In this document: positions 6,848-63,104 of the stretch, one piece after another | Layout of the letters: every line of letters starts with the position of its first letter | How positions within the stretch are numbered: position 1 is the stretch's first letter | DNA from: Collinsella sp. AF02-46-1 | Lineage (GTDB): Bacteria; Actinomycetota; Coriobacteriia; Coriobacteriales; Coriobacteriaceae | Direction of reading: 5' to 3' | DNA: 64,000 nucleotides | Assembly: GCF_003465825.1 (NCBI RefSeq) | Contig: NZ_QSBV01000008.1 | Span: 31,624-95,623 of the forward strand | Notes under the pieces: model-generated | Told to the model about the DNA's origin: nothing | The model's input: only the letters and a program-made list of their open reading frames with translations | Databases searched by the model: none | Made by a program: the position numbers and the translations under genes

Positions 6848-9529
6848 CTAATCCTCGAGCAAATCCTCGATAAAACCGACGCGGTAGTTCTTGAAGATGA
6901 CCTCGCCACCGTCTTGCGTGGCGTCCAGATCGACATCGCCCATGATGCCAAAGTCGTGGTCGCCGTCCTCGTCGGCAAAAATCTGGTGCACGTGCCACAC
7001 GTGGAGCGCCTTCTCGTCGGACTCGTCGATCGAGAACATAGCAGAGGAGCGCGCGTCGCCGTCGGTGAGAATCTCCTCGTGCTGCTCGTGGTAAGCGTCG
7101 AGTGCTTTTTGCCAGCGGATCTCGCTCATGCCCCAGTCGTCGTCGAGTTCGCCCAGGTCGCGCACATGCTCGCGGGCGGCAAGAGTCACGCGGCGGAAGA
7201 GCGCGTTGCGCACCAACAGCGTGCAGCCGCGACGGTCCGCCACGACCTCGTCGATGCCCTGCGGCGGCGTGGCGTCGAGGGCTGCCGGGTTGCCAGCGTT
7301 CTCCCACTCGTCTACCAAGCTCGAGTCGACCGAGCGCACCACAAAGCCCAGCCACGAGATAATGTCGCGCAGGCGCTCGTCGCGCTTCTCGATGGGTACG
7401 GTGCGGTCGAGCGAACGGTAAGCCTCTGCCAGGTAGCGCAGCAAAATGCCCTCGGAGCGGGCGATGCCGAGCTTTTGAATGTAGCCCTTAAAATCGCTCG
7501 CGCTCTCCAGCATATCGCGCAGAACGCTCTTGGGAGAGAGTTGGTAGTCGTTTGCCCAGGGTACTTCCTGGCAGTACTTGTCAAAGGCGGCGTCGAGCAG
7601 GTCCTCAAGCGGCTTTTCGTACGTGACGTCCTGAATACGCTCCAGGCGCTCCTCATACTCGATGCCGTCGGCCTTCATCTCGGCCATAGCGCGATCGCGC
7701 GCGGCACGCTCCTGTGCGCGCAGCACCTGTTTGGGGTCCTCGAGCGTGGCCTCGACCATCGAGATCAGATCCATGGTATAGGTCTCGCTCTCGGGATCGA
7801 GCAGCTCCAGCGCGGCAAGCAAAAACGGTGAGAGCGGCTGGTCGAGCGCAAAGTCCTCGGGCAGGTCGACCGTCAGCGCGTAGTCGATGTCCGGCGCGGC
7901 ATCAGCCGGAGCGTCGGGTGCGGGCGGTACCTCGGTGCGCACGACGACGCCGGAGTCGATGAGCGTGGCGAAGATTTCGTCGGCGCGAACCTCGAGCTTA
8001 GCCTTTTCTTCGGGAGTCTGCAGGCTCGTCTCGATGAGGTCGTGTACGCGGGCGCGGGCGTCGCCGCCCTGCTCGACCACGCTAATCACCATGGAGTGTG
8101 TGATGCGAAGGCGCGGCTTGAGCGTTTCGGGCTGCGTCTCGATCAGGCGCTCAAAGGTCTGCTTGTTCCAGGTGACAAAGCCCTCGGGGGCCTTCTTCTT
8201 TTTAATCTTGCGGAGCTTCTTGGGGTCGTCGCCCGCCTTGGCCATGAGCTTGGCGTTCTCGATCTCGTGCTCGGGTGCCTCGGCAATCACCATGCCCTCG
8301 GTATCGAAGCCCGAGCGGCCGGCGCGACCGGCAATCTGATGAAACTCGCGGGCGCGCAGACGACGCATCTTGTAGCCGTCGAACTTGGTGAGCGCGGTGA
8401 GCACCACGGTATGGATGGGCACGTTGATACCGACGCCGAGCGTATCGGTGCCGCAGATGACGGGCAACAGGCCCTGTTGTGCCAAGCGCTCGACCAGCAG
8501 ACGATAGCGCGGCAACATGCCAGCATGGTGCACGCCGACGCCGCATCCGAGCAAGCGCTTAAGAATCTTGCCAAAGGCCGTCGAGAAGCTCGTGCCCTTG
8601 GCCGCCTCCTTGATGGCCCCACGCTGCTCCTTGCTGGCAATACCAAAGTTGGCGAGGGATTGCGCCGTCGCAAGTGCGGCGTCCTGGCTAAAGTGCACGA
8701 TGTAGAGCGGGGCCTCGCCGCGGCGCATTGCGAGCTCGACCGTGCCCTCGAGGGAGGTCGTCACGTAGTCGTAGCTCAGCGGCACGGGGCGTGGGGCATC
8801 GACGACCAGATCGCACGCGGCGCCGGTGTGCTCCTCGAGTGAGGCGGCGATCGCGGTGACATCGCCGAGCGTGGCGCTCATGAGCATGAATTGTGTGTGA
8901 GGCAGGGTGAGCAGCGGTACCTGCCAGGCCCAACCGCGATCGGGGTCGGCAAAGTAGTGGAACTCGTCCATGGCGACGCAGCCCACATCGGCATCTTCGC
9001 CCTCGCGCAGTGCGTCGTTAGCAAGGATCTCTGCCGTGCAGCAGATGACGGGCGCTTTAGTATTGATATGCGTGTCGCCGGTGATCATACCGACGTTATC
9101 GCGGCCGAGCACCTGTACCAGGTCGAAGAACTTTTCGCTGACCAAGGCTTTGATGGGGGCCGTGTAATAGCAGCGCTTGCCCTGCGCCATGCCCATAAAG
9201 AGCATGCCCAGCGCGACGAGCGATTTGCCCGATCCGGTCGGTGTGCCCAAAATGACGTGATCGCCGGCAGCCAGGTCCATGAGGGCCTCTTCTTGGTGAT
9301 CCCACAGCTCGATGCCGCGGTCGCTCGTCCATTCAAAGAAGCGTTCGAAGGCCTGATCGGCCGTGAGCCACGGTTCGGGCTCACTGCCGTCTTCGGGCTC
9401 CCACCAGGTGGGGGAGAGCGCGCCGAGCGAGCCGAACTCGGCCTCGGTTCCCGTGCCGCCCGAGAATGAGCTGGCGGCGCCGGCGCCCGAGACGGTGCTG
9501 GCGGCGGTATCTGTCGTGGTCTGTGCCAT
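6848..9529 (-). CDS. DEAD/DEAH-box helicase with DUF3516 C-terminus
   Basis: An 893-residue superfamily 2 helicase. The first half shows Walker A GTPTGSGKS, the motif II variant MDEFHYF, SATLGD, and motif VI HQIAGRAGRSG. The long C-terminal half has the length and character of the DUF3516 region found in actinobacterial helicases of the Ski2/HelY-like group, which act on RNA or structured nucleic acid. The ATG at 9527-9529 follows a GAGAGAAAG stretch and is preferred to an in-frame TTG 33 bases upstream that has no ribosome site. It is transcribed alone, with a 123-bp inverted-repeat element upstream. Confidence 0.88.
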   Translation of the reverse strand: MAQTTTDTAASTVSGAGAASSFSGGTGTEAEFGSLGALSPTWWEPEDGSEPEPWLTADQAFERFFEWTSDRGIELWDHQEEALMDLAAGDHVILGTPTGSGKSLVALGMLFMGMAQGKRCYYTAPIKALVSEKFFDLVQVLGRDNVGMITGDTHINTKAPVICCTAEILANDALREGEDADVGCVAMDEFHYFADPDRGWAWQVPLLTLPHTQFMLMSATLGDVTAIAASLEEHTGAACDLVVDAPRPVPLSYDYVTTSLEGTVELAMRRGEAPLYIVHFSQDAALATAQSLANFGIASKEQRGAIKEAAKGTSFSTAFGKILKRLLGCGVGVHHAGMLPRYRLLVERLAQQGLLPVICGTDTLGVGINVPIHTVVLTALTKFDGYKMRRLRAREFHQIAGRAGRSGFDTEGMVIAEAPEHEIENAKLMAKAGDDPKKLRKIKKKKAPEGFVTWNKQTFERLIETQPETLKPRLRITHSMVISVVEQGGDARARVHDLIETSLQTPEEKAKLEVRADEIFATLIDSGVVVRTEVPPAPDAPADAAPDIDYALTVDLPEDFALDQPLSPFLLAALELLDPESETYTMDLISMVEATLEDPKQVLRAQERAARDRAMAEMKADGIEYEERLERIQDVTYEKPLEDLLDAAFDKYCQEVPWANDYQLSPKSVLRDMLESASDFKGYIQKLGIARSEGILLRYLAEAYRSLDRTVPIEKRDERLRDIISWLGFVVRSVDSSLVDEWENAGNPAALDATPPQGIDEVVADRRGCTLLVRNALFRRVTLAAREHVRDLGELDDDWGMSEIRWQKALDAYHEQHEEILTDGDARSSAMFSIDESDEKALHVWHVHQIFADEDGDHDFGIMGDVDLDATQDGGEVIFKNYRVGFIEDLLED

Positions 9530-9652
9530 GTGTGGTTGCTTTCTCTCGCGATTGTCCGCCAACTATTATGGCGTAGCGGCGGCGCGGGGTGCCAGCGCGC
9601 GAGAAAATGCAGGAAATGGGCGTTCTGCCCAGCCGTTTGGTGCAGTAGCCAG

Positions 9653-16455: not shown

Positions 16456-18900
16456 TTATGTGTGGTCGCGCCAGCTGCGGACACGCTGCTTCATGCCCTC
16501 TATGTCGAGCACGCCTTCGGCGAAGCCCTTGCGCACGAGCTCCTCGGGAACGTACTCGTCGTAGCGATCAAAATAAGGCACCTCGCCGGGATAGACGAGC
16601 TCGATGGGATTGAAGTCCTTCTCGGCCTCGGCGGCGAGCACCTCAAAGAACGTCTCCTCGTCGGCCTTCATCTTAAACTGCATAAAGTACGGGCGTGACG
16701 GGTCAAGTCCGCGAAGGCCCAGTTCCGCGGCACACTTAATTTTGAGCATGCGCTCGAGCGCCAAAAAGGCGTAGCTGCCCAGCCAGGGGAAAAGTGCCCA
16801 GGTATCGCCGCCCAGGTTGATGAGCGGCTTAGTTCCCGCACCCGAAATATCGGCCGTATGACGAGCCTGCGCCAAGCGGGCTCTCGCGTTGCCCATAAGG
16901 TACGGATATGTCGCGTGCTCGTTGAGCGCCTTGCGCATGCGCTCGAGTACGTGTGTATTGATGTCACCGGGGCAGTCGCCAAAGTAGGCCGGCACCCGGC
17001 CCTTGACCTGCGTGGCAAAGACGGTATGACGCTTCCAGTCCACTTCCTCGACAATCCAGCAGTGTCCGGCGATGGCGATGCGCTCACCGGGCGGTGGCGG
17101 ATTGACGATCGTGCCCAACTCGGCCGACTCGCTGCGAACGGTGAACTCCTCGTTTTCCTGGAATACGGCGTAGAACTTAAAGTTGTTAATGATGCGCTCG
17201 CCCGCGAGACCCACGATGAGCCCGCCACCCTCGGTGACTTGGATATGGTCGATGGTAATGAGGTGACGCAGCAACACGCGATAGTCATCGGCCGAGATGC
17301 GATGGAAATAGCTGAGTGTGAGCACGCGCTGGGCAAGCTCTGCCGGCGTGAGTTCGCCGGTGCTGGCAAGCGTCGACATAGTCTGGTGATAGAGCAGACT
17401 GTAGGGGAGTCGATCGAGCTCGGGCGGCTCGACCCACTTTTCCTCGCTATAGAGTTGTACGAGTGCGATGCCCTGGAGGAGCTTCCAGGGAATGGTCTCG
17501 GGCATCATCGTGCGCGGCTCGGGTTCTTCCTCGCGCATGACGAACCACATCTCGGGCGGAAGATCGCGGCGTCCCGTGCGGCCCATACGCTGCAAAAAGG
17601 AGCTGACGGTAAACGGCGCATCGATCTGGAACGCGCGCTCCAGACGGCCGATATCGATGCCGAGTTCCAGCGTAGAGGTGGTGACGGTTGTCTGTGCCTG
17701 CTCCTCATCGCGCATGAGTTCCTCGGCCGTCTCGCGCAGCGATGCCGAAAGATTGCCATGGTGGATGAGGAAACGGTCGGGCTCGTGCCGGCTCTCGCAG
17801 TAGCTGCGCAGCATGGAGCACACGGCCTCTGCCTCCTCGCGCGAGTTGGCAAAGACCAGGCATTTGCGGCCGCGCGTATGCTCAAAGATATAACCCATGC
17901 CGGGGTCGGCGTTGTCGGGCGCCGTGTCGGTGGGGTTGAGAAGCGCCTGCTCGGTCGCACGTGGGATGTCGACTTCGCCCTCGGGGGCCGAGGAAGTGCG
18001 ACGGTCTTTGGGAGCGGCCTTGCCCCGCGCCTGCTCACGACGTTGACGGTGTTCTTCCTGTGTAAGCTGTCCGCTGTGGCACATGTCTTGTCCGGATGCG
18101 GGCAGCGCCGCGGGCGCCGCCGTCTCAATACGCTCGCAAGCAAGCACCTCGGCTTCTTGTGGACCTGTGCCTACGAATCCTCGCTGCTGAGCCTGGGGGC
18201 CCGAGTTGTAGAAGTGCTCCATGGAGATGCGCCACACGCGGCGCGGTTCCTCAAAGCGGGGGATGATGCAACCGCGTCCCGTTCCCTGTGAGAGAAAGGC
18301 GCCCGTGCGCTCGGGGTCGCCGATGGTGGCAGAAAGGCCAATGCGGCGAGGCTGCACGCCGGCCATGCGCGAGAGTCGCTCGATAAGACAGAGCGTCTGA
18401 CCGCCGCGGTCGCCGCGCATGAGCGAATGAACCTCGTCGATAACCACATAGCGCAGGTCGCAAAACATGCGCGGGATTGCCATGTGCTTATGGATCAGGA
18501 GCGCCTCGAGCGATTCGGGCGTAATCTGTAGGATACCGCTCGGCTTTTTGATGAGTTTGGCCTTGTGTGATTGTGAGACATCGCCATGCCAGTGCCAGAC
18601 GGGGATATCGGCTTCTTCGCACAGGTCGTTGAGGCGGACGAATTGGTCGTTGATGAGCGCCTTGAGGGGGCCAATGTAGAGGGCGCCCACGCTTGCGGGC
18701 GGGTTCTCCCAAAACTCGGTCAGGATGGGAAAGAAGGCTGCCTCGGTTTTGCCGGAAGCCGTTGACGCCGTCAGGAGCACATTGTCCTGTGTGTTGAAGA
18801 TGGCATCTGCCGCCGCAACCTGGATAGAGCGCAAGCTCTCCCAATCGTGGGAGTAGATGAAGCCTTGGATAAACGGGGCGTAGCGGTCAAAGGCGTTCAC
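16456..18900 (-). CDS. Lhr-like DEAD/DEAH helicase (BrxHI-like)
   Basis: An 814-residue superfamily 2 helicase of the Lhr group. Motifs from the chosen start are ASTASGKT (45-52), PLKALIND, DEVH (155-158), SAT (190-192) and QRMGRTGRR. A charged, low-complexity insert lies between the two RecA domains, about residues 235-335. The GTG at 18898-18900 was chosen because AAAGGAGG precedes it. Lhr-like helicases of this size serve in BREX type 2 as BrxHI. Here it is the last gene after a BrxD-like ATPase and a TerB-domain protein, which suggests one functional unit on DNA. Confidence 0.85.
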   Translation of the reverse strand: MNAFDRYAPFIQGFIYSHDWESLRSIQVAAADAIFNTQDNVLLTASTASGKTEAAFFPILTEFWENPPASVGALYIGPLKALINDQFVRLNDLCEEADIPVWHWHGDVSQSHKAKLIKKPSGILQITPESLEALLIHKHMAIPRMFCDLRYVVIDEVHSLMRGDRGGQTLCLIERLSRMAGVQPRRIGLSATIGDPERTGAFLSQGTGRGCIIPRFEEPRRVWRISMEHFYNSGPQAQQRGFVGTGPQEAEVLACERIETAAPAALPASGQDMCHSGQLTQEEHRQRREQARGKAAPKDRRTSSAPEGEVDIPRATEQALLNPTDTAPDNADPGMGYIFEHTRGRKCLVFANSREEAEAVCSMLRSYCESRHEPDRFLIHHGNLSASLRETAEELMRDEEQAQTTVTTSTLELGIDIGRLERAFQIDAPFTVSSFLQRMGRTGRRDLPPEMWFVMREEEPEPRTMMPETIPWKLLQGIALVQLYSEEKWVEPPELDRLPYSLLYHQTMSTLASTGELTPAELAQRVLTLSYFHRISADDYRVLLRHLITIDHIQVTEGGGLIVGLAGERIINNFKFYAVFQENEEFTVRSESAELGTIVNPPPPGERIAIAGHCWIVEEVDWKRHTVFATQVKGRVPAYFGDCPGDINTHVLERMRKALNEHATYPYLMGNARARLAQARHTADISGAGTKPLINLGGDTWALFPWLGSYAFLALERMLKIKCAAELGLRGLDPSRPYFMQFKMKADEETFFEVLAAEAEKDFNPIELVYPGEVPYFDRYDEYVPEELVRKGFAEGVLDIEGMKQRVRSWRDHT

Positions 18901-18981
18901 GGGGCCTCCTTTCAACAACGAATTTCTCAACGCGGCTGGCAACGGCTTGCTGCATTACTGCTTCAACGTTTGCCCAGATAA

Positions 18982-19018
18982 AACCTGCCAAAATAAACCT
19001 GTCCCTTTTTGGTAGGTT
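18982..19018. repeat. Palindromic repeat with GGGACAG in the loop
   Basis: AACCTGCC (18982-18989) pairs with GGTAGGTT (19011-19018) with one wobble. On the minus strand the loop carries AAAAAGGGACAGG. It lies between the BrxD-like and Lhr-like genes and overlaps the last codon of the former. It may attenuate readthrough into the helicase gene. Confidence 0.55.
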
Positions 19019-20321
19019 AGATGGTGAACTCGGCGAAGTTGCGGTCGCCGCCTGCGGTGCCGGTGTCGCCTGTTGCGGCTGCCGGCGCCAGCGCGTCGCC
19101 GCCGACGCTTTGCAGCAGCTCGGCCACGTTGGCGTCGGGGTTTTGGCATAGGATGTCGAGCAACTCGATAAAGTCACGAATGACCTCGCGCGGCGTCAGG
19201 TGCGTGTCGGCTCCCACACGACCGAACTCAATCTTGAGGAAGTCAACCAAGTCGTTTTCGGTCAGCGTGGGCGTCCAGCCAAAGTAGCCGGCGTGAATTT
19301 GCATGAGTTTTTCGATCAGCACCAGCAACTCCTCGTAGGTGAGTGGTTGCAGGCGGATGATGGGCGCAAGCATGTCCTTAAGGTCCTCGCGCGCAAAGCG
19401 GCCCTGGGCGAGTCGGCTGCGTAGGGCCTCGTAGGAAAACACACCGCGGCGGCGGTCCTCGATGGAGGTCGGCGTGCCACCCATGATCATGCCCAGGTAC
19501 TGCGCCTTGCCCTGAAGTGTGTCGTTGTACATGGTCAGGATCTTCTCGTAGTTGTACTGGCGCGTGATGGCGTTGGGAATCTTATACAGATTCACGAGCT
19601 CGTCGATGAGCACCAGCATGCCCTTGTAGCCACTGCAAACCAAAAAGCGCGCAATGAGCTTAACGTAGTTGTACCAGTCGTCATCGCTGATGATGGTCGA
19701 GGAGCCCAGCTCGGCGCGTGCCTCGCTCTTGGTGCGGTATTCGCCGCGAATCCATTTGGTCACGCGGCTCATGGTCTCTTCGTCGCCCCCGGATGCGGCC
19801 ATGCGATAGCGGCGGAGCATGCGGGTGAAGTCGAAGCCGTGGACCATCTCCTCGAGCGGGGCCAGTTGGGCATTGACGACCGACTCGTCGACGTCGGCAC
19901 ACGAGGCGACCCAGCGATCCAGAATAAGGTTGAGCGCACCGCCCTCGGGGCGCGTCTTGGTCGATATATTGCGGATGAGCTCGCGGTAGGTGGCAAGGCC
20001 CTGTCCCTGACCGCCCTGCAGGCGGCGCTCGGGCGACAGGTCGGCATCAGCGACGACGAACCCCTCGCCCATGGCGTGCGTGCGGATAGTCTGGAGCAAA
20101 AAGCTCTTGCCGGCGCCGTAACGACCGACCAGAAAGCGGAAGCTCGCGCCACCGTCGGCGATGAGACTCAGATCGGTGAGCAGGGCGCGGATCTCGACCT
20201 CGCGCCCTACGGTGATGTAAGGAAGGCCGATGCGCGGGACCACGCCGCCCTTGAGCGAGTTGAGAATGACGGCAGCGACGCGCTTGGGCACGCGAGGTGC
20301 TGCGGATGCGGTATCACTCAT
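19017..20321 (-). CDS. BREX-type ATP-binding protein (BrxD/DUF2791-like)
   Basis: A 434-residue P-loop ATPase. Walker A is GRYGAGKS (66-73) and Walker B is MLVLIDE (235-241), followed by ELVNLYK. The later segments RRGVFSYEALRSRL and LTYEELLVLIEKL fit the DUF2791 family that includes BrxD and BrxC. In BREX type 2, BrxD acts with the helicase BrxHI in phage defence. Its start overlaps the end of the TerB-domain gene by 8 bases, so the two are translationally coupled. No PglX, PglZ, PglW or PglY gene is in this window. Confidence 0.82.
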   Translation of the reverse strand: MSDTASAAPRVPKRVAAVILNSLKGGVVPRIGLPYITVGREVEIRALLTDLSLIADGGASFRFLVGRYGAGKSFLLQTIRTHAMGEGFVVADADLSPERRLQGGQGQGLATYRELIRNISTKTRPEGGALNLILDRWVASCADVDESVVNAQLAPLEEMVHGFDFTRMLRRYRMAASGGDEETMSRVTKWIRGEYRTKSEARAELGSSTIISDDDWYNYVKLIARFLVCSGYKGMLVLIDELVNLYKIPNAITRQYNYEKILTMYNDTLQGKAQYLGMIMGGTPTSIEDRRRGVFSYEALRSRLAQGRFAREDLKDMLAPIIRLQPLTYEELLVLIEKLMQIHAGYFGWTPTLTENDLVDFLKIEFGRVGADTHLTPREVIRDFIELLDILCQNPDANVAELLQSVGGDALAPAAATGDTGTAGGDRNFAEFTI

Positions 20322-22068
20322 GGTCTAGGTATCCTCTCACGTCTGCTTCGTAGTCCTCGATAATCTGCGGCCCTGCTGCGCTAAATTCAATTACGGTGTC
20401 GCCCACCAGGTCAAAGAGCGCCTCGTTGATGGTATCGACGAGCATGTCCTCGCTCTGCTCCGATTGCACTACCGCCGATTCCGCCTGTACTGCGTTGTGC
20501 TCGAGCAGAGCGCGGAGATAGGCGTTTGCGGCGGGCGCGAGTTCGTTTGTGGCGTCAGCGGGCGTAGCAGCTGCGAACGCGGGCGTCGGCGCGAGAAGCG
20601 GTGCCACGACACCAAACTGTTCGGTGGATATGGTTGGCTCGTCGGACTCGTCCTGCCCTGCGGCCGCCGCGACCGCCTCGACCATCGCGTCGGCTACGGG
20701 CTCGGCTTCCGGTTGCCCTGAGTCCGCTGCCTCGGCTTCTGCGGACGCGCCGTCCTCGCGTTCCTCGTCGATCAAAAGCGCTTCGCGCGTTTGTGCGGCA
20801 GCGCTCCGAATGTGCCCCAGCTGGCTCAAATCGATATCGATCTTGACGGGCTGGTGTGCGGCGTCCCACGAAAGCCATGCCACAATCTCGTCATCGATAA
20901 TCTTGGCCAGATATTTGGGGACCTTTTCTTCCTTAAGGGGATGGGCGGGGTCCAGCGCCAGGCGCAGGCGTTGGTCGCAGGCGCGCATCATTTCACCGAG
21001 CTTGCTGCTCTTTTGCCTGCTACCGTGAATCCGCATGCATTCCCAAAAACCGTTTTGGCAACGGTAGATATGGATGGGGTCCAGACGGTATTCGCAGTCC
21101 TCGTGGCGCTCGGGCGCAAAGAATACGGCCGAGGCAAACATGGTGTAGGGCATGGCCGTCTCCTCCCCAAATAAACTTGCCACGATGCCGGTCTTTCGGT
21201 GCGTGTCATAGTAGCGCGCCATGCGGACATACACGGCGCACGCCACGTGGCGCAGATCACGGTGGTGGCTGCGGTCGAGCCGCGAGCTACTTAGGTTGTA
21301 CGTGGAGAGGGCGTTGATGGCGGCCATGAGTCGCTCCTCGCGCACCTCATCGGGCGGAAGGGGGAGCGTGGGCTCGGAGGTTTTGCGACGCTTAGGGGTC
21401 TGGCCGGACGGTGCCGGTACAAGGTCTCGTGCCGCGCGCCGCAGTTCGATAAGGGCGTTATCGAACATGACGGTTTTAGAGTCGCGAAGCAGCTTGGGGT
21501 CGAGCCCGTGGAACACGGCGTAATCTTGCAGCCACACGCGCGCAAACCGGTCGATGCCGGGCTCGAAGGCGCGATAGACATCCCAAAAAGCCTTGATCTT
21601 GTTAAAACCATCGAGTGGATTATCTACGCCAATGCCGCAGATCAGCTCATAGAGATACAGAAAGGCAAAGGACGTAGACGTTTCCTCGACGGTTCCGCGG
21701 CGCACTTGGGCACGCCAGGTAAAGTAGCCGCGCAGTTGCCGGTCGCTCATGGCGTTGTAGGTGGGAAAGTACGACTTAAAGGTGCCGTTGTAGGGACAGT
21801 CGTCCTCAAAGTCGGCCATCAGCAGGCCCTGGCGGTAAAAAAGCTCGGCTTCCGAAAGCCAGCGGCCCGCACCGCCCTTGGGGTCATCCTGCCAGCGCGA
21901 TATCTCGCGCATTTTACGGTACTGGTCGGGGAGGAAATTCTGCATCTGTCGGCCGGTTTTGAGAATCGGCTCGTCTGCGTAGGTTTCGTTTGAGAAGCGG
22001 GCGGACTGATGGGTCCGGGCCTCGGCCATAATGCGCTCGATGAGCATCTTGATGTCCTGGTCGGCCAC
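20314..22068 (-). CDS. TerB-N / TerB-C domain protein
   Basis: A 584-residue protein. Residues about 60-250 match the TerB-N region, with its aromatic and acidic core: AELFYRQGLLMADFED, YFPTYNAMSDRQLRGYFTWR and the VRRGTVEETS stretch. The last 90 residues fit TerB-C (EALFDLVGD). An Ala/Glu-rich flexible linker lies between. These domains belong to the tellurium-resistance (Ter) network, proposed to link stress sensing with DNA processing. The GTG start follows AGGAGGAG. The gene leads a module with the BrxD-like ATPase and Lhr-like helicase. The biochemical role is unknown. Confidence 0.8.
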   Translation of the reverse strand: MADQDIKMLIERIMAEARTHQSARFSNETYADEPILKTGRQMQNFLPDQYRKMREISRWQDDPKGGAGRWLSEAELFYRQGLLMADFEDDCPYNGTFKSYFPTYNAMSDRQLRGYFTWRAQVRRGTVEETSTSFAFLYLYELICGIGVDNPLDGFNKIKAFWDVYRAFEPGIDRFARVWLQDYAVFHGLDPKLLRDSKTVMFDNALIELRRAARDLVPAPSGQTPKRRKTSEPTLPLPPDEVREERLMAAINALSTYNLSSSRLDRSHHRDLRHVACAVYVRMARYYDTHRKTGIVASLFGEETAMPYTMFASAVFFAPERHEDCEYRLDPIHIYRCQNGFWECMRIHGSRQKSSKLGEMMRACDQRLRLALDPAHPLKEEKVPKYLAKIIDDEIVAWLSWDAAHQPVKIDIDLSQLGHIRSAAAQTREALLIDEEREDGASAEAEAADSGQPEAEPVADAMVEAVAAAAGQDESDEPTISTEQFGVVAPLLAPTPAFAAATPADATNELAPAANAYLRALLEHNAVQAESAVVQSEQSEDMLVDTINEALFDLVGDTVIEFSAAGPQIIEDYEADVRGYLDHE

Positions 22069-22990: not shown

Positions 22991-24421
22991 TCAGGTGGTT
23001 GTCGGGACATAGGGGTAGTAGTCAAAGCGCAGTGTCATAAGCCGCTGCGGGGATTCAATAGCCGCGGCGATGATATTGGCATCGCGGGCACGATCAAACC
23101 CTTCGAGTTCGATCTGATACGAGACGTCTTGCATAATGTCCAGACGTCGCCAGGCTAGAAGTGTGTCGCCATCGAATTCCAAGGTCTTGCCTCCGTCTGG
23201 GGCAACGGCGTATAGACGCAGTTTAGCGGTGGTTGCAGGGTCGACAACCGTGACCTTTTTAATTTCGTTTCGAGTATTCTTGGCGCCCAACAAGGTGAGC
23301 AGTGTTGGGGCCACGACCTCGCCCGATGGCAAAAAGACGACTTCGATGGATTCGGGAAATGCGATGATGGCCGACTTGCGGACGGGCTGATTGGCGGCGG
23401 CAACTTCGATGTTTGCAGCATCGATGACCTCTGTGTGGTCGAGGGCGGCAAGCACGCAGCAGTTACCTTCATCGATCTCCTGAGGATCAGCAAGTCCCAG
23501 ACTGTCCGCGAGCTCGGGATCGTTTGGACCGGTAGCGGGCTCATTCGGTGCTTCGAAAGAAGCTGGGACGCTGTTTGTCGGCGACGGCGTGTCGCCCGCA
23601 CCTGCTTCTTTGTCCGTGCTCTCTTCTTGTATGGTTGCGTTGATGGGTTCGTCGTTTGAGGGGAGCGTCTTGGCGTCAAGCGCGGAGGGGACAATCCCGA
23701 TGGCTCCGGATCCGTTCCACTCCATCTCGAGAAGCGCCGGGTCGGCAAGAATGCGTTGCCTGCCTAGCGTGTGGGTATCGATCGCAATAGGGCCTGCCTC
23801 CGTCCCGCGCGTAAGGCTGAGCGATCCGGCCGGCTTCTCGAAATGAATGTCTGTGTCTTCGGTACTGGCGGCGTAGAACAGCAGGGATGCTTCTCCCGCC
23901 GCGATGGCATCGGTGCCCGCCTTGGTCAGCCGCAGCGATGCCGTGAATGAGAGGGTGGGCTGCACATCGTCTGCATTCGCGGCGGCGCAGCCCAGACATA
24001 TACCGCCTCCTTTCTCGAAAAACGCACCGTCGAAGGCGACCTTCGCTCCGTTCGCCGAGTCATCGACCGAAGCGATATCGATGCGCAACCCCAAATCGCA
24101 CGGATCGCCATCTGCATCGAGCACAATCGAGCGCCATGTGCAGACGGCGCACCCCGCCTGGGAGCCGTTTGCCTTGTTCGAACGATTGATATCCACGACT
24201 ATCGAGCCGTCCGTATTACGACGAAGGCATCCCGAGGTTGAGATTGCGGCCTGTGCGAACGAAAAACGCTTGCACGCAATGGCGCTCGACGGATTTGGTG
24301 CGGAGCTTAGGGCTGCTGGTAAGGAGTCTGCCATGACGGGAGTCGCCCAAGCGGCGACAGGCGTTCCGGTTGCGAGCGCGCCGCAGAGTGCGACGACGGG
24401 CAAAAGGTTCTTCGATGCCAT
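22991..24421 (-). CDS. Secreted protein with CxxC motifs, unknown
   Basis: A 476-residue protein with a clear signal peptide ending near AWATPVMA. The mature part is cysteine-bearing, with CAVC and CLGC pairs in the first 150 residues, which could form disulfides or bind metal. A Ser/Pro/Glu-rich linker occupies residues about 265-320, followed by a beta-rich end. There is no sorting signal or C-terminal membrane helix, so it should be released or held by partners. AAGGAG precedes the ATG. It is the last gene of a five-gene group of exported proteins. I do not recognise a family. Confidence 0.7.
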   Translation of the reverse strand: MASKNLLPVVALCGALATGTPVAAWATPVMADSLPAALSSAPNPSSAIACKRFSFAQAAISTSGCLRRNTDGSIVVDINRSNKANGSQAGCAVCTWRSIVLDADGDPCDLGLRIDIASVDDSANGAKVAFDGAFFEKGGGICLGCAAANADDVQPTLSFTASLRLTKAGTDAIAAGEASLLFYAASTEDTDIHFEKPAGSLSLTRGTEAGPIAIDTHTLGRQRILADPALLEMEWNGSGAIGIVPSALDAKTLPSNDEPINATIQEESTDKEAGAGDTPSPTNSVPASFEAPNEPATGPNDPELADSLGLADPQEIDEGNCCVLAALDHTEVIDAANIEVAAANQPVRKSAIIAFPESIEVVFLPSGEVVAPTLLTLLGAKNTRNEIKKVTVVDPATTAKLRLYAVAPDGGKTLEFDGDTLLAWRRLDIMQDVSYQIELEGFDRARDANIIAAAIESPQRLMTLRFDYYPYVPTTT

Positions 24422-24439
24422 GGGGTCTCCTTAGCTAAT

Positions 24440-24718
24440 TTAGTGCGGCCTGTCCGTGTTTCGTTTCTGGCTGCGTTTGATGTGCAGACCGAGGCCGGCG
24501 GTTCCCGCACCTGCTGCCGTGGCGCCTGCTGCCAAGAGCCATCGTCTGTCGTCTGTCTGTGCCAACGGTTCCTTGCAGTTGCCGCGGTCGAGCTCCGAGA
24601 GGTCGACCGTCACTTGCGTGGCGGCCTGCGCCTGTTCTTGCTGGGCAAAGGCCATGGCTGGCCCAAACGCTAGGATACTGACGGCGGCCAGGGCGACGGC
24701 CTTATGCCGTGTGCGCAC
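24440..24718 (-). CDS. Small membrane-anchored secreted protein, LAQT motif
   Basis: A 92-residue protein. A signal peptide (to about AMAFA) is followed by a 30-residue extracellular part, then LAQTDD, a glycine/alanine-rich hydrophobic helix and a basic tail (KRSQKRN). That order mimics a cell-wall sorting signal, with LAQTD in place of LPXTG or the LAXTG used by class E sortases. The GTG at 24718 is preferred and overlaps the preceding gene by 17 bases. An upstream ATG would overlap by 47. It may simply be a type I membrane protein. Confidence 0.55.
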   Translation of the reverse strand: MRTRHKAVALAAVSILAFGPAMAFAQQEQAQAATQVTVDLSELDRGNCKEPLAQTDDRRWLLAAGATAAGAGTAGLGLHIKRSQKRNTDRPH

Positions 24719-25301
24719 CGGGCTCGACCGTCCAGGTGATCGTTGCAACCTGATCGCCTTCGCCGGTTACGCGGAAGATGTCGCGCGTGACGCGGGCGAC
24801 GTTTCCGCTTGTCTTGAGCTTAATTTTGTCCGTGCCGCCGGCAATGCCCTGGTAGCCCATGTCGAAGGCTGCATTCTTGGAAAGATCGAGGCCCGTCTCC
24901 TGCATTGCGGCGCTGGCGTTCTGGAGTGCGCCGTCGGGGCCGACCTTAAAGTCGATGGAATTCTGCGCGGTTCCGGCCTTGGCGTCGGCGGCAATGGTCC
25001 AGGTGTTCATGGCGTCGATCTTCATGTTGGTGACATGGATGCCGTAGGCCGAATGATTGTCGATGGTGGTCGCGTCTTCTGAGGGGCCCTGAAGCGTGCC
25101 GTCGGCCTTGGCGACGAAGGGAATAACCGTCGGAACTTTGAACTCTACGTTGTCGATCTCGGTCCTGACCATTACTTTCGTGGTTCCAACGCGCCCGGCT
25201 GCCAGAGCTGGCGTCGGGGCGGCGCCCATTGCGAGCGCGAGCGCGAGCCCTGCGCCCACGACGAGCGCTCTGGCTCCGTTCATGTTCCTGGTGATGTCCA
25301 T
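24702..25301 (-). CDS. Secreted beta-rich protein, WxL-like C-terminus
   Basis: A 199-residue protein with a signal peptide (cleavage near TPALAA). The mature part is Thr/Asn/Asp-rich and beta-like, with SAYGIHVTNM and NTWTI in the middle and ATITWTVEPG at the end. The terminal pattern recalls WxL domains, which bind the cell wall non-covalently, but the match is partial. It is the third gene in the exported-protein group, so a surface or matrix role is likely. Confidence in the gene is high and in the family low. Confidence 0.65.
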   Translation of the reverse strand: MDITRNMNGARALVVGAGLALALAMGAAPTPALAAGRVGTTKVMVRTEIDNVEFKVPTVIPFVAKADGTLQGPSEDATTIDNHSAYGIHVTNMKIDAMNTWTIAADAKAGTAQNSIDFKVGPDGALQNASAAMQETGLDLSKNAAFDMGYQGIAGGTDKIKLKTSGNVARVTRDIFRVTGEGDQVATITWTVEPGAHTA

Positions 25302-25391
25302 GGTCGTTCCTTTCTATTCGCCGCGGGCCGTCCCCGCGATGATTGGACGAATGCTGGTGAATTGCGTGCGGTGTCGCGTCGGCCGAAAAAG

Positions 25392-25901
25392 CTAGTTCTC
25401 GGCTTGCTCAACCCGTACCTTGACACGTGTCGGATTGCCGTGGCTGTCGAGGGTCTTGGCATCGAGTGCCTGGATCTCGATGTATGCCTCTCCTTCTTTG
25501 ATGTCGCCGGCGGGGCACGTCTCGATTGTCTTGCCGGTCTCGACCACACCGGATTCGTACATGGTCTCGTCGTTTTGGATGACGCGGAATCGCTGGGGAA
25601 ATTTATTGTCTTGGACGTTTTGCACGTTGACGCGCAGCTTGCCGTCCTCCTGTAGCTGAGCGACCGGCGCGACCGAAATCGTCATCATGTTGTCGCGGAC
25701 GATGGCATCGAGCTCATCTTGGATTTCTTGTCGCGATTTACCCTCTGCCGTCGTGACTGAGGCGCCCGCTTCGGGCACGGGCTGCGACTGCCAGGCGTAT
25801 AGCCCTACGGCGATGAGGGCGCAGGCGATAGCCAGGCAGACAACGACGAGTTTCTTGCGACGCCCCAGTCCTGCGAGGCGGGGCGGCTTCTTCGCACTCA
25901 T
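25392..25901 (-). CDS. Single-pass membrane protein, unknown
   Basis: A 169-residue protein with a basic cytoplasmic start (RRKK), a membrane helix at about residues 18-41, and an extracellular domain of beta character that contains VAPVAQL and KVRVEQ. There is no lipobox or sorting motif. The ATG overlaps the stop of the upstream 98-residue gene by four bases (ATGA), so translation is coupled. Its place between a small cytoplasmic protein and WxL-like secreted proteins suggests an anchor or assembly partner. Confidence 0.6.
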   Translation of the reverse strand: MSAKKPPRLAGLGRRKKLVVVCLAIACALIAVGLYAWQSQPVPEAGASVTTAEGKSRQEIQDELDAIVRDNMMTISVAPVAQLQEDGKLRVNVQNVQDNKFPQRFRVIQNDETMYESGVVETGKTIETCPAGDIKEGEAYIEIQALDAKTLDSHGNPTRVKVRVEQAEN

Positions 25902-52319: not shown

Positions 52320-52427
52320 AAATCCGTTCAACAGATCTGCCTGCCGAAGCGGGTATACACAGAGGACTCATCGCTATGAACCGTGAGAGGTATCGCGGCG
52401 ACCTGCCCCTATCGGGGGTGGGCGCCT

Positions 52428-55400
52428 ATGTCATCGCTTAAGACGACGCATCGCTGGGCAGTCGCTCGGCAAAACCCCGAGCTCGAAAAGGAGCTTTCGG
52501 CTGGCCTGGGCATACCCGGGCTGGTGGCGCGCATTATGGTTGCGCACGGCATAACATCCATCGAGGAAGGCCAGCTGTTTTTGACGCCTTCGCTCGATCG
52601 CGACTGGGCCGACCCACTCATTATTCCGGGCATGGCGGTCGTTGCCGACCGCGTCGAGCGCGCTATTCGCAACCACGAGCACATCGCGGTCTTTGGCGAT
52701 TTTGACGTCGACGGCATTACGTCGACTTGTCTGTTGACCGAGGCGCTACGTTCGTTTGGCGCCAACGTCACGCCGTTTATTCCGCATCGCTTTGACGAGG
52801 GCTACGGCCTGTCGCGTGCGGCGCTCGACCGCGTCAACGAGCTCGCCCAACCCAACCTGATCGTGACCGTCGATAACGGCATTGCCGCCAAGGGAGAGGT
52901 TTCCTATCTGGAGAGCCTGGGGATCGATTTGGTGGTCACGGACCATCACGAGCCCTCCGACCAGGTGCCGCAGGGCGTGCCCCTGACCGACCCCAAGCTC
53001 GAGGACGAGGGTCCCTCGCGTGAACTTGCCGGTGCTGGTGTGGCGCTCAAGCTGGTGCAAGTCCTGGGTGAGCGCCTGGGCAAGCCGTCGTATTGGCGTT
53101 CGCTAATCGAGGTCGCGGCGCTGGGCACCGTGTCCGACATGATGCCGCTCACGCCCGAGAACCGCGCGCTGGTTGCCGAGGGCATCCAGCAGATGCGCGT
53201 AACCGCTCGTCCCGGCTATATCGCGCTTGCTGCGCTCGCCAAGACGGACCTTTCTACCATTACGGCCGACGGCCTGTCGTTTTCGCTCATCCCTCGTCTG
53301 AATGCTGCCGGCCGCATGGCTGATCCCAAGCTGGCGCTCGACCTGCTGCTTGCCCGCGATCCCATCGAAGCAAGCGCACTGGCGGCTGAGCTCGAGGAAA
53401 TCAACCGCCAGCGCCGTGAGATCGAGGCGGAGCTCACGCGCGATGCCATGGCAAAGGTCGAGAAGACCTATGACGGCGGACGCGCAATCGTCGTGGGTGG
53501 CGAGGGCTGGCACGAGGGCGTCAAGGGCATCGTGGCGAGCCGCCTGACCAATCGCTATCACGTGCCGGCGCTGCTCTTCTCGATCGAGGACGGCGTTGCA
53601 CGCGGATCGGGCCGCTCGGTGGGCAAAGTTAACCTGTTTGACGCCGTCGAGCGCTGTTCCGACCTGCTGATTCGTCGCGGCGGACATGCCGGTGCGGTGG
53701 GTGTGACCATCGAGGCATCCAAGCTCGATGAGTTCCGCCGCCGCCTTTCCGCCGTGCTATCGGAGCTTCCCGCCGAGGACTTTGAAGACACCGACGAGGT
53801 CGCCGCCACCGTCGACCTTTCCGAGCTGAATATTGAGACCATCGAGCAGATCTCCCGTCTTGAGCCGTTTGGCCAGGGCAACAAGGTGCCGCTGTTGGCG
53901 GCCGAGGGCGTGACAATGTGCGATCGCGCCGTGGTGGGCAAAACCGGCGAGCACATGCGCTTCGTGGCGACCGATGGCGCCGCGAGTGTGCCGGCCATTA
54001 TGTTCCGCGTGCCGCAGATCGATAAGCTCATCAATTGTGATAGCGCCGTCGACTTGGTGTTCGAGGCCGTGGCCGAGCATTGGCAAGGTCGCGTAAAGCC
54101 CAAGCTCATGATCAAGGATGTTCTGGTCCGCGATACCACGCTGCCCAGCGTCGACGATCCGGCATGCGAGCTTCGTCGTGGCGTGCAGCCGGCGGATTCC
54201 GGCCTGCGCCTGGAGTCCCGAAAGCGCCAAACGCTCGCCCAACTTTCTTATACCGAGCTCACGCGCTCGCTTATCCATAGCTTTATCGGCTCGAACCAGC
54301 CGCACCGCGCGCAGGTCGAAGCGCTCGATGCCCTGGCCGATCACCAAAGTGTTCTGGCCGTTATGGGAACGGGGCGCGGAAAGTCTCTTATCTTCCATGT
54401 GCACGCCGCGCGCGAGGCGGTCCTTCGCGGGCGTGCGAGTATCTTTGTCTATCCGCTGCGTGCGCTCGTTGCCGACCAGGCCTATCACCTCTCGTCGACG
54501 ATGGCTGCGCTCGGCATTGGCGTAGGCGTGCTGACCGGCGAGACCGTGGAGGCGGCGCGCGATGACGTGTTTGCCGGCTTGGCTTCGGGCCGCACCGGCA
54601 TCGTGCTCACGACGCCTGAGTTCCTGTCTATTCACCGCGACCGCTTTGCTCGCTCGGGTCGTATCGGGTTTGTCGTTATCGACGAGGCGCATCATGCCGG
54701 TCTTGCCAAGGGCGGCGACCGTAGCGCATACCTCGACATGCCCGATATCCTCAAGGCCCTGGGCGATCCGGTCGTTATGGCGGCGACGGCCACCGCGACG
54801 GCTCCGGTCGTGGCGGAGCTTGCCCGCGTGTTGCCGATTACCCGTACGGTGGTCGACGAGACCGTGCGCGAGAACTTGCAGCTCGAGGACGACCGCGATC
54901 TTGCGAGCCGCGAAAACCGCCTGGTGTCCATCGTCGCGACGGGGGAGAAGACCGTCATCTACGTCAATTCGCGTGATCAGTCCGTGGCGCTTGCTAAGAC
55001 GCTGCGCAAGCGGGTACCCGATTGCGCGACCCGCATCGCGTTCTATAACGCGGGGCTTGCGCGCTCCGATCGTCGCCGTGTCGAGGAAGCGTTTCGTGAC
55101 GGAAGCCTCAGTTGCATCGTTTCGACATCTGCCTTTGGTGAGGGCGTGAACCTGCCCGATATCCGCCATGTCGTGCTCTACCACATGCCGTTTGGCGGCA
55201 TTGAGTTTAACCAGATGAGCGGCCGCGCCGGTCGCGATGGCCAGCCCGCCGTGATCCATCTGCTCTATTCGTCGCGCGACGCCCGCATTAACGAGCGCCT
55301 ACTCGACTGCTATGCGCCCGAGCGCGACGAACTCGTCACGCTCTATCGCGCGTTGCAGACCATGTGGCGCTCCAACCGCGGCAAGACCGGGGACGATTCC

Positions 55401-55715
55401 TTTAGCGCGAGCGATATCGACATCGCTCAGATGTGTCTTGCCATCGATGCTCGCACGCCGGTTGACGAGCGCTCGGTGGAAAGCGGCCTGGGAATCTTCG
55501 AAGAGCTTGGTTTCTGTCGCGTTTCGGGGTTTGACGACACCCGTCGCATCGCGATGGCCGAAAACCCCGGCCGCGTGCAATTGAGCAGGTCGATTCGCTA
55601 TTTGGAGGGCTTGCGCTCGCGCATGGAGTTCTCGGCTTTCCGGAGCTGGGCGCTCGATTCGTGCGCTTCTGATATGCTAGCCAAAGTTAACCGCCCGATC
55701 GTACCGCGGGCCTAG
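52428..55715 (+). CDS. RecJ exonuclease fused to RecQ-like helicase
   Basis: A 1,095-residue fusion. Residues 1 to about 600 are a RecJ single-strand 5'-3' exonuclease: DFDVDG at 91-96, TDHHEP and RRGGHAGAVG. Residues about 610-1095 are a RecQ-like helicase: MGTGRGKS at 646-653, DEAH at 752-755, TATATA and SGRAGRDGQ. The two activities work together in recombinational repair in bacteria that carry them separately. The ATG at 52428 follows GGGGGTGGG. Whether the helicase part lacks the RQC and HRDC domains is unclear; no HRDC is evident. The relA gene follows closely. Confidence 0.9.
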   Translation: MSSLKTTHRWAVARQNPELEKELSAGLGIPGLVARIMVAHGITSIEEGQLFLTPSLDRDWADPLIIPGMAVVADRVERAIRNHEHIAVFGDFDVDGITSTCLLTEALRSFGANVTPFIPHRFDEGYGLSRAALDRVNELAQPNLIVTVDNGIAAKGEVSYLESLGIDLVVTDHHEPSDQVPQGVPLTDPKLEDEGPSRELAGAGVALKLVQVLGERLGKPSYWRSLIEVAALGTVSDMMPLTPENRALVAEGIQQMRVTARPGYIALAALAKTDLSTITADGLSFSLIPRLNAAGRMADPKLALDLLLARDPIEASALAAELEEINRQRREIEAELTRDAMAKVEKTYDGGRAIVVGGEGWHEGVKGIVASRLTNRYHVPALLFSIEDGVARGSGRSVGKVNLFDAVERCSDLLIRRGGHAGAVGVTIEASKLDEFRRRLSAVLSELPAEDFEDTDEVAATVDLSELNIETIEQISRLEPFGQGNKVPLLAAEGVTMCDRAVVGKTGEHMRFVATDGAASVPAIMFRVPQIDKLINCDSAVDLVFEAVAEHWQGRVKPKLMIKDVLVRDTTLPSVDDPACELRRGVQPADSGLRLESRKRQTLAQLSYTELTRSLIHSFIGSNQPHRAQVEALDALADHQSVLAVMGTGRGKSLIFHVHAAREAVLRGRASIFVYPLRALVADQAYHLSSTMAALGIGVGVLTGETVEAARDDVFAGLASGRTGIVLTTPEFLSIHRDRFARSGRIGFVVIDEAHHAGLAKGGDRSAYLDMPDILKALGDPVVMAATATATAPVVAELARVLPITRTVVDETVRENLQLEDDRDLASRENRLVSIVATGEKTVIYVNSRDQSVALAKTLRKRVPDCATRIAFYNAGLARSDRRRVEEAFRDGSLSCIVSTSAFGEGVNLPDIRHVVLYHMPFGGIEFNQMSGRAGRDGQPAVIHLLYSSRDARINERLLDCYAPERDELVTLYRALQTMWRSNRGKTGDDSFSASDIDIAQMCLAIDARTPVDERSVESGLGIFEELGFCRVSGFDDTRRIAMAENPGRVQLSRSIRYLEGLRSRMEFSAFRSWALDSCASDMLAKVNRPIVPRA

Positions 55716-60273: not shown

Positions 60274-61707
60274 ATGGCTGTTATTAATGTGCTGCCTTCG
60301 GATGGGAAGGTTATTGACGAGGGTCCAGTTGGTTGCTCTGCTGATGTTCGCTGTGATGACTTTCGTCATCTCGATGTTGGACTGCCGCCCGAGATTTTTC
60401 GTCTTAAGGATGCCGGGTATTTGACGCAGGCTGTTGCTGCCTGCGATCGCCTTTTGGAGCAGAACCCCGAGCCTTCGCTGGCTGCTTGTGTTCGTGCCGA
60501 GCGGTATCGCATGCTCGAGACGCCGCTTCATTTTTCGGTGTCGCGCGATCAGGCTATTACGATGATTCGCGAGGAGTGGCCTGAGTTTACCGAGGAGCAG
60601 TTTGACGATCTGATTGACCGTAAGCGTATTGACTGGCGCTTTATCGATGGCGAGCTGTTCGTTCTCGACAACTTCCTCGATTCGCTTCGCGTATATCCCA
60701 AAGAGGTCCCCGGCATGCGTCCCGATCCTACGGACGGAATTGCACTGCGCAACGAGATGCTCAAGGAGATGGAGTCGCAAAACGGATTGGCTCGCGTCAT
60801 TACGCTTAAAGCGTCTGTGTCTGTCCCCGGCGCTCTAGAGGGGGAGACCGTTCGCGCTTGGCTTCCCGTTGCCGCCACCTGCCGCCAGCAGTCTCGGGTC
60901 GACATTCTCGACATGACGCCGGAGGGTGCTGTTGCTCCCGCGAACGCTTCGGCGCGTACCGTCTCGTGGTCTTCTTCGAGTGAGCGCTCATTCTCGGCGA
61001 CCTATCGCTATCACATCGATGCTGCTTATTGTGATGTCTACGGTGGCACACTTCCGGTTCATCCGCGTATGGACGCGCCTCTGCCCGAGGATATTTCCGA
61101 GGACCGTCCGCACATTGCATTCACGCCGTATCTGCTGCAGCTGACGGCCGGTGTTGTTGACGGACTCGAGGATCCGCTCGATCGCGCCCGTGCTATCTAT
61201 GATTACCTGACGCAGCATATCGACTATCGCTATCAGCCGCCGTACTTGCTTTTGGGATCTATTGTCGATGACTGCGCGCATTCGCTCCGCGGCGATTGCG
61301 GCGTTATGGCGCTCACGTTTATCACCATGTGCCGTATCGCGGGCGTGCCTGCCCGTTGGCAGAGCGGCCTGTACGTTGCGCCCGATTCGGTGGGGTCGCA
61401 CGACTGGGCAGAGTTCTATACGCCGCAGACCGGTTGGCTCAACGCCGACGTGTCATTTGGATCTTCTGCTCGCAGGATGGGGGAGGAGTGGCGCCGCCGT
61501 CACTACTTTGGCAATCTCGACCCGTGGCGTATGGTGGCCAACAATCGATTCCAGGCAGAGTTTGAGCCCTCTTTCGACGGCATGCGCGAGGACCCTTACG
61601 ATAACCAGATGGGTGAGGCTTCGGTCGACGGTCGCGGATGCCGTCGGCGCGAGATGCTCCGCACGGTCGAACTCATCGAAATGCTCGAAGTTCCATTTTC
61701 GGACTAA
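60274..61707 (+). CDS. Transglutaminase-like domain protein
   Basis: A 477-residue soluble protein. The C-terminal half is a transglutaminase-like (papain-fold) domain with an apparently complete triad: C342 in RGDCGVMAL, H376 in GSHDWAEFY and D392 in NADVSFG. The N-terminal 160 residues are helical and not recognised. Bacterial members are often proteases or amidases and not cross-linkers. There is no signal peptide, so it acts in the cytoplasm. GGAG lies 9 bases before the ATG, with TACAAT about 40 bases upstream. Confidence 0.82.
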   Translation: MAVINVLPSDGKVIDEGPVGCSADVRCDDFRHLDVGLPPEIFRLKDAGYLTQAVAACDRLLEQNPEPSLAACVRAERYRMLETPLHFSVSRDQAITMIREEWPEFTEEQFDDLIDRKRIDWRFIDGELFVLDNFLDSLRVYPKEVPGMRPDPTDGIALRNEMLKEMESQNGLARVITLKASVSVPGALEGETVRAWLPVAATCRQQSRVDILDMTPEGAVAPANASARTVSWSSSSERSFSATYRYHIDAAYCDVYGGTLPVHPRMDAPLPEDISEDRPHIAFTPYLLQLTAGVVDGLEDPLDRARAIYDYLTQHIDYRYQPPYLLLGSIVDDCAHSLRGDCGVMALTFITMCRIAGVPARWQSGLYVAPDSVGSHDWAEFYTPQTGWLNADVSFGSSARRMGEEWRRRHYFGNLDPWRMVANNRFQAEFEPSFDGMREDPYDNQMGEASVDGRGCRRREMLRTVELIEMLEVPFSD

Positions 61708-61746
61708 TCGGTAGAAAGCTGTGATAAACTAACTCACGCATTGCGT

Positions 61747-61833
61747 GCCCGAGTGGCGGAATTGGCAGACGCAGTGGACTCAAAATCCACCGTTGGCAAC
61801 AACGTGCGAGTTCGAGTCTCGCCTCGGGCACCA
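61747..61833 (+). tRNA. tRNA-Leu (CAA)
   Basis: Acceptor arms GCCCGAG (61747-61753) and CTCGGGC (61823-61829) pair. The anticodon loop CTCAAAA gives anticodon CAA. A long variable arm, GGTTCGAG-type T arm (here AGTTCGAGTCTCG) and encoded CCA (61831-61833) complete the 87 bases, as in class II tRNAs. It reads the UUG leucine codon. Confidence 0.95.
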
Positions 61834-61852
61834 TACATGCAAGTGAGCGTTC

Positions 61853-61876
61853 AAGGGGGTTGCGGCCCCCTTTTTC
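61853..61876 (+). terminator. Terminator of tRNA-Leu
   Basis: AAGGGGG (61853-61859) pairs with CCCCCTT (61866-61872) and is followed by more T residues. Confidence 0.85.
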
Positions 61877-61879
61877 GTG

Positions 61880-61994
61880 CCGAACTCGCGTGAGCGCGCG
61901 AAGCGTTAAGCAAACAGGCCTGTGGCCTGTTTGTAGCGGAGCGTGGCGAGGGCGCCACGCGCCCGAAGCCCGGGGCTTCGCGAAGCGAAGGCCC
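61880..61994. repeat. Palindrome-rich insert between the two tRNA 3' copies
   Basis: The 115 bases contain CAAACAGGCC-TGT-GGCCTGTTTG and further nested inverted repeats (GGCGAGGGCGCC, CGAAGCCCGGGGCTTCG). There is no coding potential. Confidence 0.5.
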
Positions 61995-62062
61995 TTCGAG
62001 TCTCGCCTCGAGCACCATACATGCAAGCGAGTGTTCAAGGGGGTCAAGGTCCCTTTTTCGTG
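61995..62062 (+). repeat. Duplicate of the tRNA-Leu 3' end and terminator
   Basis: Bases 61995-62062 repeat 61811-61879 (T arm, acceptor 3' strand, CCA and downstream terminator) with only a few changes, 184 bases to the right. There is no 5' half, so it is not a second tRNA. It looks like the scar of a tandem tRNA duplication or of an integrated element at the tRNA 3' end. Confidence 0.85.
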
Positions 62063-62084
62063 TACGTAATGTGATAACGCGCTG

Positions 62085-62279
62085 TACGTGTTATTATTCG
62101 CAAGGCGTTGTTCCCACAATGCCCTAAAGAGGAACCTGAGGGTTCCCACCTTTTGGCGCCAATGAGCAGCTGACTGGTCATACAACTTAGATTCCCTTCC
62201 TCAAATCGAGGAAGTCTATGTGTACGACCTGGTTGCTGAGAAGCGCCGGGTTATTTTTTTATGAATGGAGGTAGGGAAA
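62085..62279 (+). promoter_or_regulatory. infC leader RNA
   Basis: About 195 bases upstream of infC can fold into several hairpins, for example CTTCCTC-AAAT-GAGGAAG (around 62197-62215), and end in the attenuator at 62227-62260. In many bacteria the infC-rpmI-rplT leader binds L20 to control transcription or translation. A TATTAT near 62089 is a possible -10 box. The role is inferred from position and structure. Confidence 0.55.
62227..62260 (+). terminator. Attenuator-like terminator in the infC leader
   Basis: ACCTGG (62227-62232) pairs with CCGGGT (62246-62251), followed by TATTTTTTT, only about 20 bases before the infC coding region. Confidence 0.65.
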
Positions 62280-62834: not shown

Positions 62835-62866
62835 CTAGTGTTCTGTAACCGATTAAGGAGTATTTC

Positions 62867-63058
62867 ATGCCTAAGATGAAGTCCCACAGCGGCACCAAGA
62901 AGCGTTTCCGCAAGACTGGTACCGGCAAGCTTATGCGCGCCAAGGCTTTCAAGAGCCACATCCTGAGCAAGAAGTCCACCAAGCGTAAGCGTGGCTTCCG
63001 TCAGGAGACCGAGATCGCCGCTGCCGACCGCAAGGTCATCAAGTCGCGTCTCGCCTAA
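62867..63058 (+). CDS. rpmI: Ribosomal protein L35
   Basis: A 63-residue basic protein that fits L35 from its start ([20 protein letters not shown]) and length. It is a component of the large ribosomal subunit. AAGGAG precedes the ATG. It lies between infC and rplT, the usual order. Confidence 0.95.
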
Positions 63059-63104
63059 GTTCGCGTTCCCGTTTTTCGTTTTACCGTCTAGGAGTTGATA
63101 GAAC

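Follow-up and report, generated by a model that had tools for sequence, protein, structure and literature searches.

Defence systems usually turn over rapidly by gain and loss. Shango is a three-gene system of a TerB-like protein, an ATPase and a helicase; the part of PMC10250203 available to us describes it as common in a defence hotspot of Pseudomonas aeruginosa, where it changed the efficiency of plating 10-100-fold for many phages, not all, and where protection in liquid culture was generally strong and exceeded the effect on plating. The same part reports Shango in immune islands of Escherichia coli, with two phages inhibited about 10-fold. In excerpts of other papers, Shango is listed under PF05099 (PMC10952713), its helicase SngC is grouped with BrxHI, DruE and DpdJ in a clade of defence helicases that may be distinct (PMC12278908), and restriction-modification genes are said to tend toward colocalization with Shango genes outside defence islands (PMC10924106). 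No paper on the mechanism of Shango was found among the literature matches listed. The earlier report of Shango in E. coli is said to be that of Millman et al. in 2022. In this study we examined three genes in a 64,000-nucleotide stretch of DNA from Collinsella sp. AF02-46-1 (contig NZ_QSBV01000008.1; the whole stretch is called the window). We consider it likely that they are a complete Shango system that was present in the Coriobacteriaceae ancestor and, since then, has passed down mainly by vertical descent as a core locus of the chromosome.

Assignment of the trio

The locus consists of three minus-strand open reading frames (ORFs) at 16456-22068 of the window, in the order sngA-sngB-sngC (Table 1). 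The best PADLOC models for the three proteins were SngA, SngB and SngC, each a near full-length match at an E-value at which chance matches are of no concern. Because PADLOC gave all three proteins these names, the locus was assigned to Shango, and the trio, taken on its protein sequences, is a complete SngA-SngB-SngC system. It resembles Shango of P. aeruginosa PA14 and E. coli in all three proteins, in gene order and in strand, and differs in being chromosomal and near-universal in its family instead of belonging to a variable hotspot or a plasmid.

An earlier note on this DNA had likened the ATPase and helicase to BrxD and BrxHI of BREX (bacteriophage exclusion) type 2. The likeness is real: SngB is a BrxC_BrxD-family ATPase, and BrxHI is the nearest model to SngC after the SngC model itself. 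Membership in BREX was not supported. The PADLOC runners-up, BrxD for the ATPase (1.3e-38) and BrxHI for the helicase (4.2e-122), were outscored by hundreds of bits by the SngB and SngC models, and the ATPase gave 131.5 bits against the NCBIfam BrxD model, short of its cut-off of 350. On these scores the proposed Ter-BREX hybrid was rejected. A TerB_N/TerB_C protein takes the place of the Pgl families: none of the PglX, PglZ and BrxC/PglY core of BREX type 2 was found, and no Pgl family was among the 15 families matched at E 1e-18 in a PADLOC scan of 56 window ORFs besides the trio, taken from the 64 of at least 160 residues that passed a codon filter. The note had likewise seen no PglX, PglZ, PglW or PglY. 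The only Brx family in the scan was the BrxHI model, from one ORF, and PglZ was also absent from the nearest genome searched (G001).

The note's central idea, a stand-alone TerB_N/TerB_C, BrxD-like and BrxHI/Lhr-like module linked to defence, was supported. Its claim of a distinct new system fell, since the trio has already been named and tested as Shango (PADLOC; PMC10250203), and its statement that there was no experimental account was wrong because Shango is a published anti-phage system.

Table 1. Genes of the Shango locus in the window
Gene	Product	Length (aa)	Position	Strand	Best model matches
sngA	TerB_N + TerB_C protein	584	20314..22068	-	PADLOC SngA 1.1e-75
sngB	BrxD-like AAA+ ATPase	434	19017..20321	-	PADLOC SngB 3.9e-168; Pfam BrxC_BrxD 1.3e-148
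sngC	BrxHI/Lhr-type superfamily 2 helicase	814	16456..18900	-	PADLOC SngC 3.7e-275

Gene organization and protein motifs

The trio is real and intact. As the note had stated, the first two genes overlap by 8 bases (20314-20321); sngC begins about 116 bases beyond sngB, so that all three are adjacent on one strand. The longest sngC ORF (16456-18942) starts at TTG 18942 and encodes 828 residues. The start is most likely GTG 18900 instead, because AGGAGG lies just upstream of it and its 814-residue product matches the computed length of the ten nearest homologues. Scans of the locus gave one promoter-like site (2.5 expected) and 10 terminator-like sites (7.1 expected).

SngA matched TerB_N (2.1e-32) and TerB_C (5.7e-15) in Pfam and nothing in NCBIfam. 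The TerB assignment in the note therefore stands for these two domains and not for the TerB domain proper (PF05099), which was not detected in the window SngA at E 0.1. PF05099 was present in one of 10 other SngA proteins scanned (4.1e-12); in this SngA-like protein of G225 (L261:5935-8328, 798 residues) it lies between TerB_N and TerB_C, and the other nine lack it. The C-terminus of SngA (residues about 504-584) looks winged-helix-like, and SngA is predicted to be a recognizer or bridging subunit.

The P-loop ATPase and large Lhr-like helicase of the note were both borne out, by the BrxC_BrxD match of SngB and the DEAD (1.9e-26) and Helicase_C (1.4e-17) matches of SngC. Their catalytic motifs are intact. 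SngB has a Walker A motif from residue 66 and a Walker B motif around residue 236, with G66, G69, G71, K72, S73, D240 and E241 invariant across 27 aligned sequences. SngC contains TASTASGKT, DEVH, SAT and QRMGRTGR, and GKT and the last three motifs are invariant across 37 aligned sequences. SngC shares its superfamily 2 core with Lhr and the ligase-associated DEXH helicases, and the closest solved sequences, 5v9x (6.4e-25) and 7lhl (3.6e-24), are annotated as ATP-dependent DNA helicases. It differs from those groups in falling far below their models (TIGR04121, 192.9 bits, cut-off 850; PRK13767, 162.9 bits, cut-off 849) and in its operon partners.

Distribution

Searches were made with one genome per species, including 65 Coriobacteriaceae species; family codes were read by inference (f1, Coriobacteriaceae; f5, Atopobiaceae; f2, Eggerthellaceae), and the family counts rest on that reading. 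In every Coriobacteriaceae species examined, Shango was a conserved chromosomal locus. SngA was found in all 65, several times as fragments at contig ends, with one SngA per genome except where it was split over contigs; SngC exceeded 200 bits in 64 of the 65, and SngB was detected at 1e-60 in 61 of 64 (G023 falls outside the 64 and carries sngB). In each of the three SngB misses (G016, G027, G065) sngA lies at a contig end. The control gene rpoB was over its cut-off in 58/64 genomes and detected at E 0.001 in 61/64; because it was missed about as often as sngB, we attribute the misses to incomplete genomes. The other controls were patchy: hsdR was over its cut-off in 18/64 (33/64 at E 0.001), cas1 in 22/64 and PglZ in 20/64. 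The nearest SngB genes in named genomes were those of Collinsella aerofaciens strains, with up to 100% identity, and the window is C. aerofaciens-like. Word sharing with the nearest genome of the search set was 42%. Below the species level the evidence is indirect and consists of two SngA proteins, 99% identical to that of the window, on 72 and 74 contigs. Besides its full-length sngC at 61171-63558, G049 has a partial SngC match about 17 kb away (contig C34:43771-44517; profile positions 476-718, 210 bits).

Across the order, SngA was found in 130 of 214 genomes of at least 95% completeness (f1, 56; f5, 63; f2, 9; f3, 1; f7, 1). Among the f5 rows listed, 63 with and 17 without SngA, each of the 17 genera with at least two species either had SngA throughout or lacked it altogether, compared with 9.4 mixed genera on average over 10,000 shuffles; this test assumes that no f5 genome is among the 64 unlisted SngA-negative genomes. 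One f2 genus, g42, was mixed, with SngA in G591 and G599 and absent in G117. In the phylum, 27 of 396 genomes had SngA, one of them (G225) outside the order.

Gene order and neighbours

Both sngA and sngB were recovered on the fetched stretch in 60 of the 65 f1 genomes, and in all 60 they were adjacent on one strand; in the other five, one or the other gene was not recovered there. In 39 of the 65, sngC followed sngB within about 500 bases. To look for variable defence cargo within the operon, the 114 ORFs lying between sng genes in gapped genomes were clustered, and several clusters recurred in related species; by sequence they look ordinary, a judgement made apart from any domain library, and some may yet be such cargo. 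In the C. aerofaciens group and some members of other Coriobacteriaceae genera, sngC is followed by a convergent gene (spds) beside an Elp3-like gene; spds has no Pfam hit, and we read it as spermidine-synthase-like.

There was no clear defence island around the trio in the window. At 15 Shango loci from outside the family, the 95 surrounding ORFs yielded matches to 13 PADLOC families at 1e-10, including AriA (three ORFs) and SoFic (two ORFs); we judged most of the others to be generic proteins. In Pfam these ORFs most often matched a glutamine amidotransferase domain or AIRS_C (five ORFs each). Thus single defence-like neighbours do occur outside the family, with no clear island.

Inheritance, selection and mobility

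Divergence of the sng genes was compared with that of rpoB in 51 of the 65 species (in the other 14, one of the four genes was missing from the fetched sequences or incomplete). Pairwise distances correlated with those of rpoB at 0.63 for sngA, 0.75 for sngB and 0.68 for sngC, values matched by none of 500 permutations for each gene. In smaller sets that included a neighbour, the correlations for sngA, sngB, sngC and the neighbour were 0.78, 0.90, 0.71 and 0.84 (elp3-like; 32 species), 0.69, 0.78, 0.61 and 0.68 (spds; 44 species), and 0.75, 0.81, 0.79 and 0.81 (g26540; 27 species). The agreement of the sng genes with rpoB is thus similar to that of a neighbouring gene.

Median ratios of nonsynonymous to synonymous substitution (dN/dS), determined in the C. 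aerofaciens group with 17-21 genomes per gene, were 0.116 for sngA, 0.041 for sngB and 0.044 for sngC. Neighbours gave 0.062 (elp3-like), 0.092 (spds), 0.064 (DUF554), 0.064 (g26540) and 0.042 (g28138), and three further neighbours 0.278, 0.207 and 0.091. Purifying selection on the sng genes resembles that on neighbouring chromosomal genes.

In a FastTree phylogeny of SngB with 101 rows, some bearing the family labels of metagenome bins, a branch of 35 rows (support 95) held 31 Coriobacteriaceae, two f1 and one Atopobiaceae row and the window copy. Next to it, 19 rows formed an Atopobiaceae/f5 branch; a second branch mixed families, and the five f2 rows were scattered.

Among 72,556 plasmid records, 681 had an SngB-like protein at E 1e-30, 540 of them typed conjugative, a set that may mix Shango and BrxD and of which two were inspected. 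None of the records had a copy at 60% identity or more. The two inspected plasmids (from Aeromonas caviae and Paenibacillus), both typed non-mobilizable, carried a trio in the same order that scored as SngA, SngB and SngC; window SngB was 43.9% and 51.0% identical to their copies. A plasmid search with SngC at E 1e-100 gave one record. In 50,697 phage records there was no match at E 1e-20. On the Paenibacillus plasmid a hypothetical gene (L272:9504-10889) follows sngC after 24 bases, on the same strand, and is possibly a fourth Shango-linked gene.

Discussion

The near-universal trio, the patchy controls, the neighbour-like dN/dS values and the rpoB-like divergence led us to favour a mainly vertically inherited core locus. 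Elsewhere Shango is found on plasmids and in defence hotspots; in the Coriobacteriaceae it behaves as a core locus. Several observations weigh against this reading. Shango in f1 lacks the patchiness typical of defence, Pfam gave no nuclease domain in any of the three proteins, and we found no Coriobacteriales Shango that had been tested functionally. In 15 of the 65 f1 genomes sngC lay 0.6-5.9 kb from sngB (gap sizes are rough, the reading frames having been extended upstream), and in 11 the stretch fetched with the other genes did not include it; G006 and G030 have it on a separate large contig, where the nearest contig end is tens to hundreds of kilobases away. Among splits with support of at least 0.95, 5/20 for sngA, 2/13 for sngB and 4/19 for sngC conflicted with a supported rpoB split, and the label Coriobacteriaceae needs 10 changes on the SngB tree; inheritance was therefore not purely vertical. 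These label changes, the mixed-family branch and the scattered f2 rows make transfer at the order level likely.

Such conflicts, the scattered Eggerthellaceae copies and the SngB-like proteins on plasmids are what one would cite for repeated horizontal acquisition, in which the same site was refilled and the locus is core in appearance only. We regard this as very improbable, given the 32-species correlations with rpoB, close to that of the elp3-like neighbour, the single SngA per genome and the lack of a plasmid copy at the 60% identity level. A stronger rival, though still an unlikely one, is that the trio is a domesticated genome-maintenance module, with chromosome repair or replication restart as its main role and anti-phage activity secondary or lost. 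Near-universality in f1, the all-or-none pattern among the f5 genera, the low dN/dS of sngB and sngC, the keeping of sngC even on a different contig, and the pairing of an AAA+ loader with an Lhr-like helicase all fit that role. Against it, known homologues protect against phage, according to the part of PMC10250203 available, and the divergence of SngA is rapid (pairwise amino-acid distances averaging 0.446, vs 0.198 for SngB), which suits a recognizer under pressure. Shango is also absent from many related genera and is therefore not generally essential. The earlier note had held that a universal and syntenic trio with no defence link would speak against its proposal; within the family the trio is near-universal, largely syntenic and without a clear island in the window, whereas at the order level it is not universal.

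Protection against phage has been demonstrated for homologues and may extend to the window copy. In the likely mechanism, SngB would load or activate the SngC helicase on DNA, as BrxD has been suggested to do for BrxHI (PMC12839542, in part). SngA, through its winged-helix-like C-terminus, may recognize or bridge the target and gate the motor, and the engaged helicase might then block phage DNA replication. We suggest only tentatively that Shango was domesticated in the Collinsella family, passing from a mobile module to a fixed core one that serves as permanent innate immunity or as a genome-maintenance machine.

Shango itself is already known; what is unusual is a defence system seemingly fixed in a bacterial family. 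The matches listed in the open-licence PMC literature included no report of a family-wide fixed Shango and no paper on topic for Shango with Collinsella or Coriobacteri. A partial precedent for such a core-like locus is the type I-E CRISPR-Cas system of E. coli, present in about 70% of genomes (PMC10121019). A family with a fixed and constrained Shango offers a natural setting in which to ask when defence becomes indispensable, and its chromosomal copies should be useful for working out the mechanism. For annotation, trios of TerB_N/TerB_C, BrxD-like and BrxHI-like proteins in gut actinobacteria need to be checked against the Shango models first; otherwise they risk being labelled partial BREX or tellurite resistance.

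Other genes of the window

A run of minus-strand genes at 22991-25901 encodes several proteins with signal-peptide-like starts. The proteins of 22991-24421, 24702-25301 and 25392-25901 had no Pfam hit, and two genes of the run had the two highest dN/dS values given above for the neighbours, the highest among the genes tested. The product of the minus-strand gene at 6848-9562 is a DEAD helicase that carries DUF3516 (5.7e-184) at its C-terminus. On the plus strand, a 1110-residue ORF at 52383-55712, adjoining a relA/spoT gene, joins a RecJ-like nuclease, with DHH, DHHA1 and RecJ_OB domains, to a RecQ-like helicase whose DEAD and Helicase_C domains come after them.

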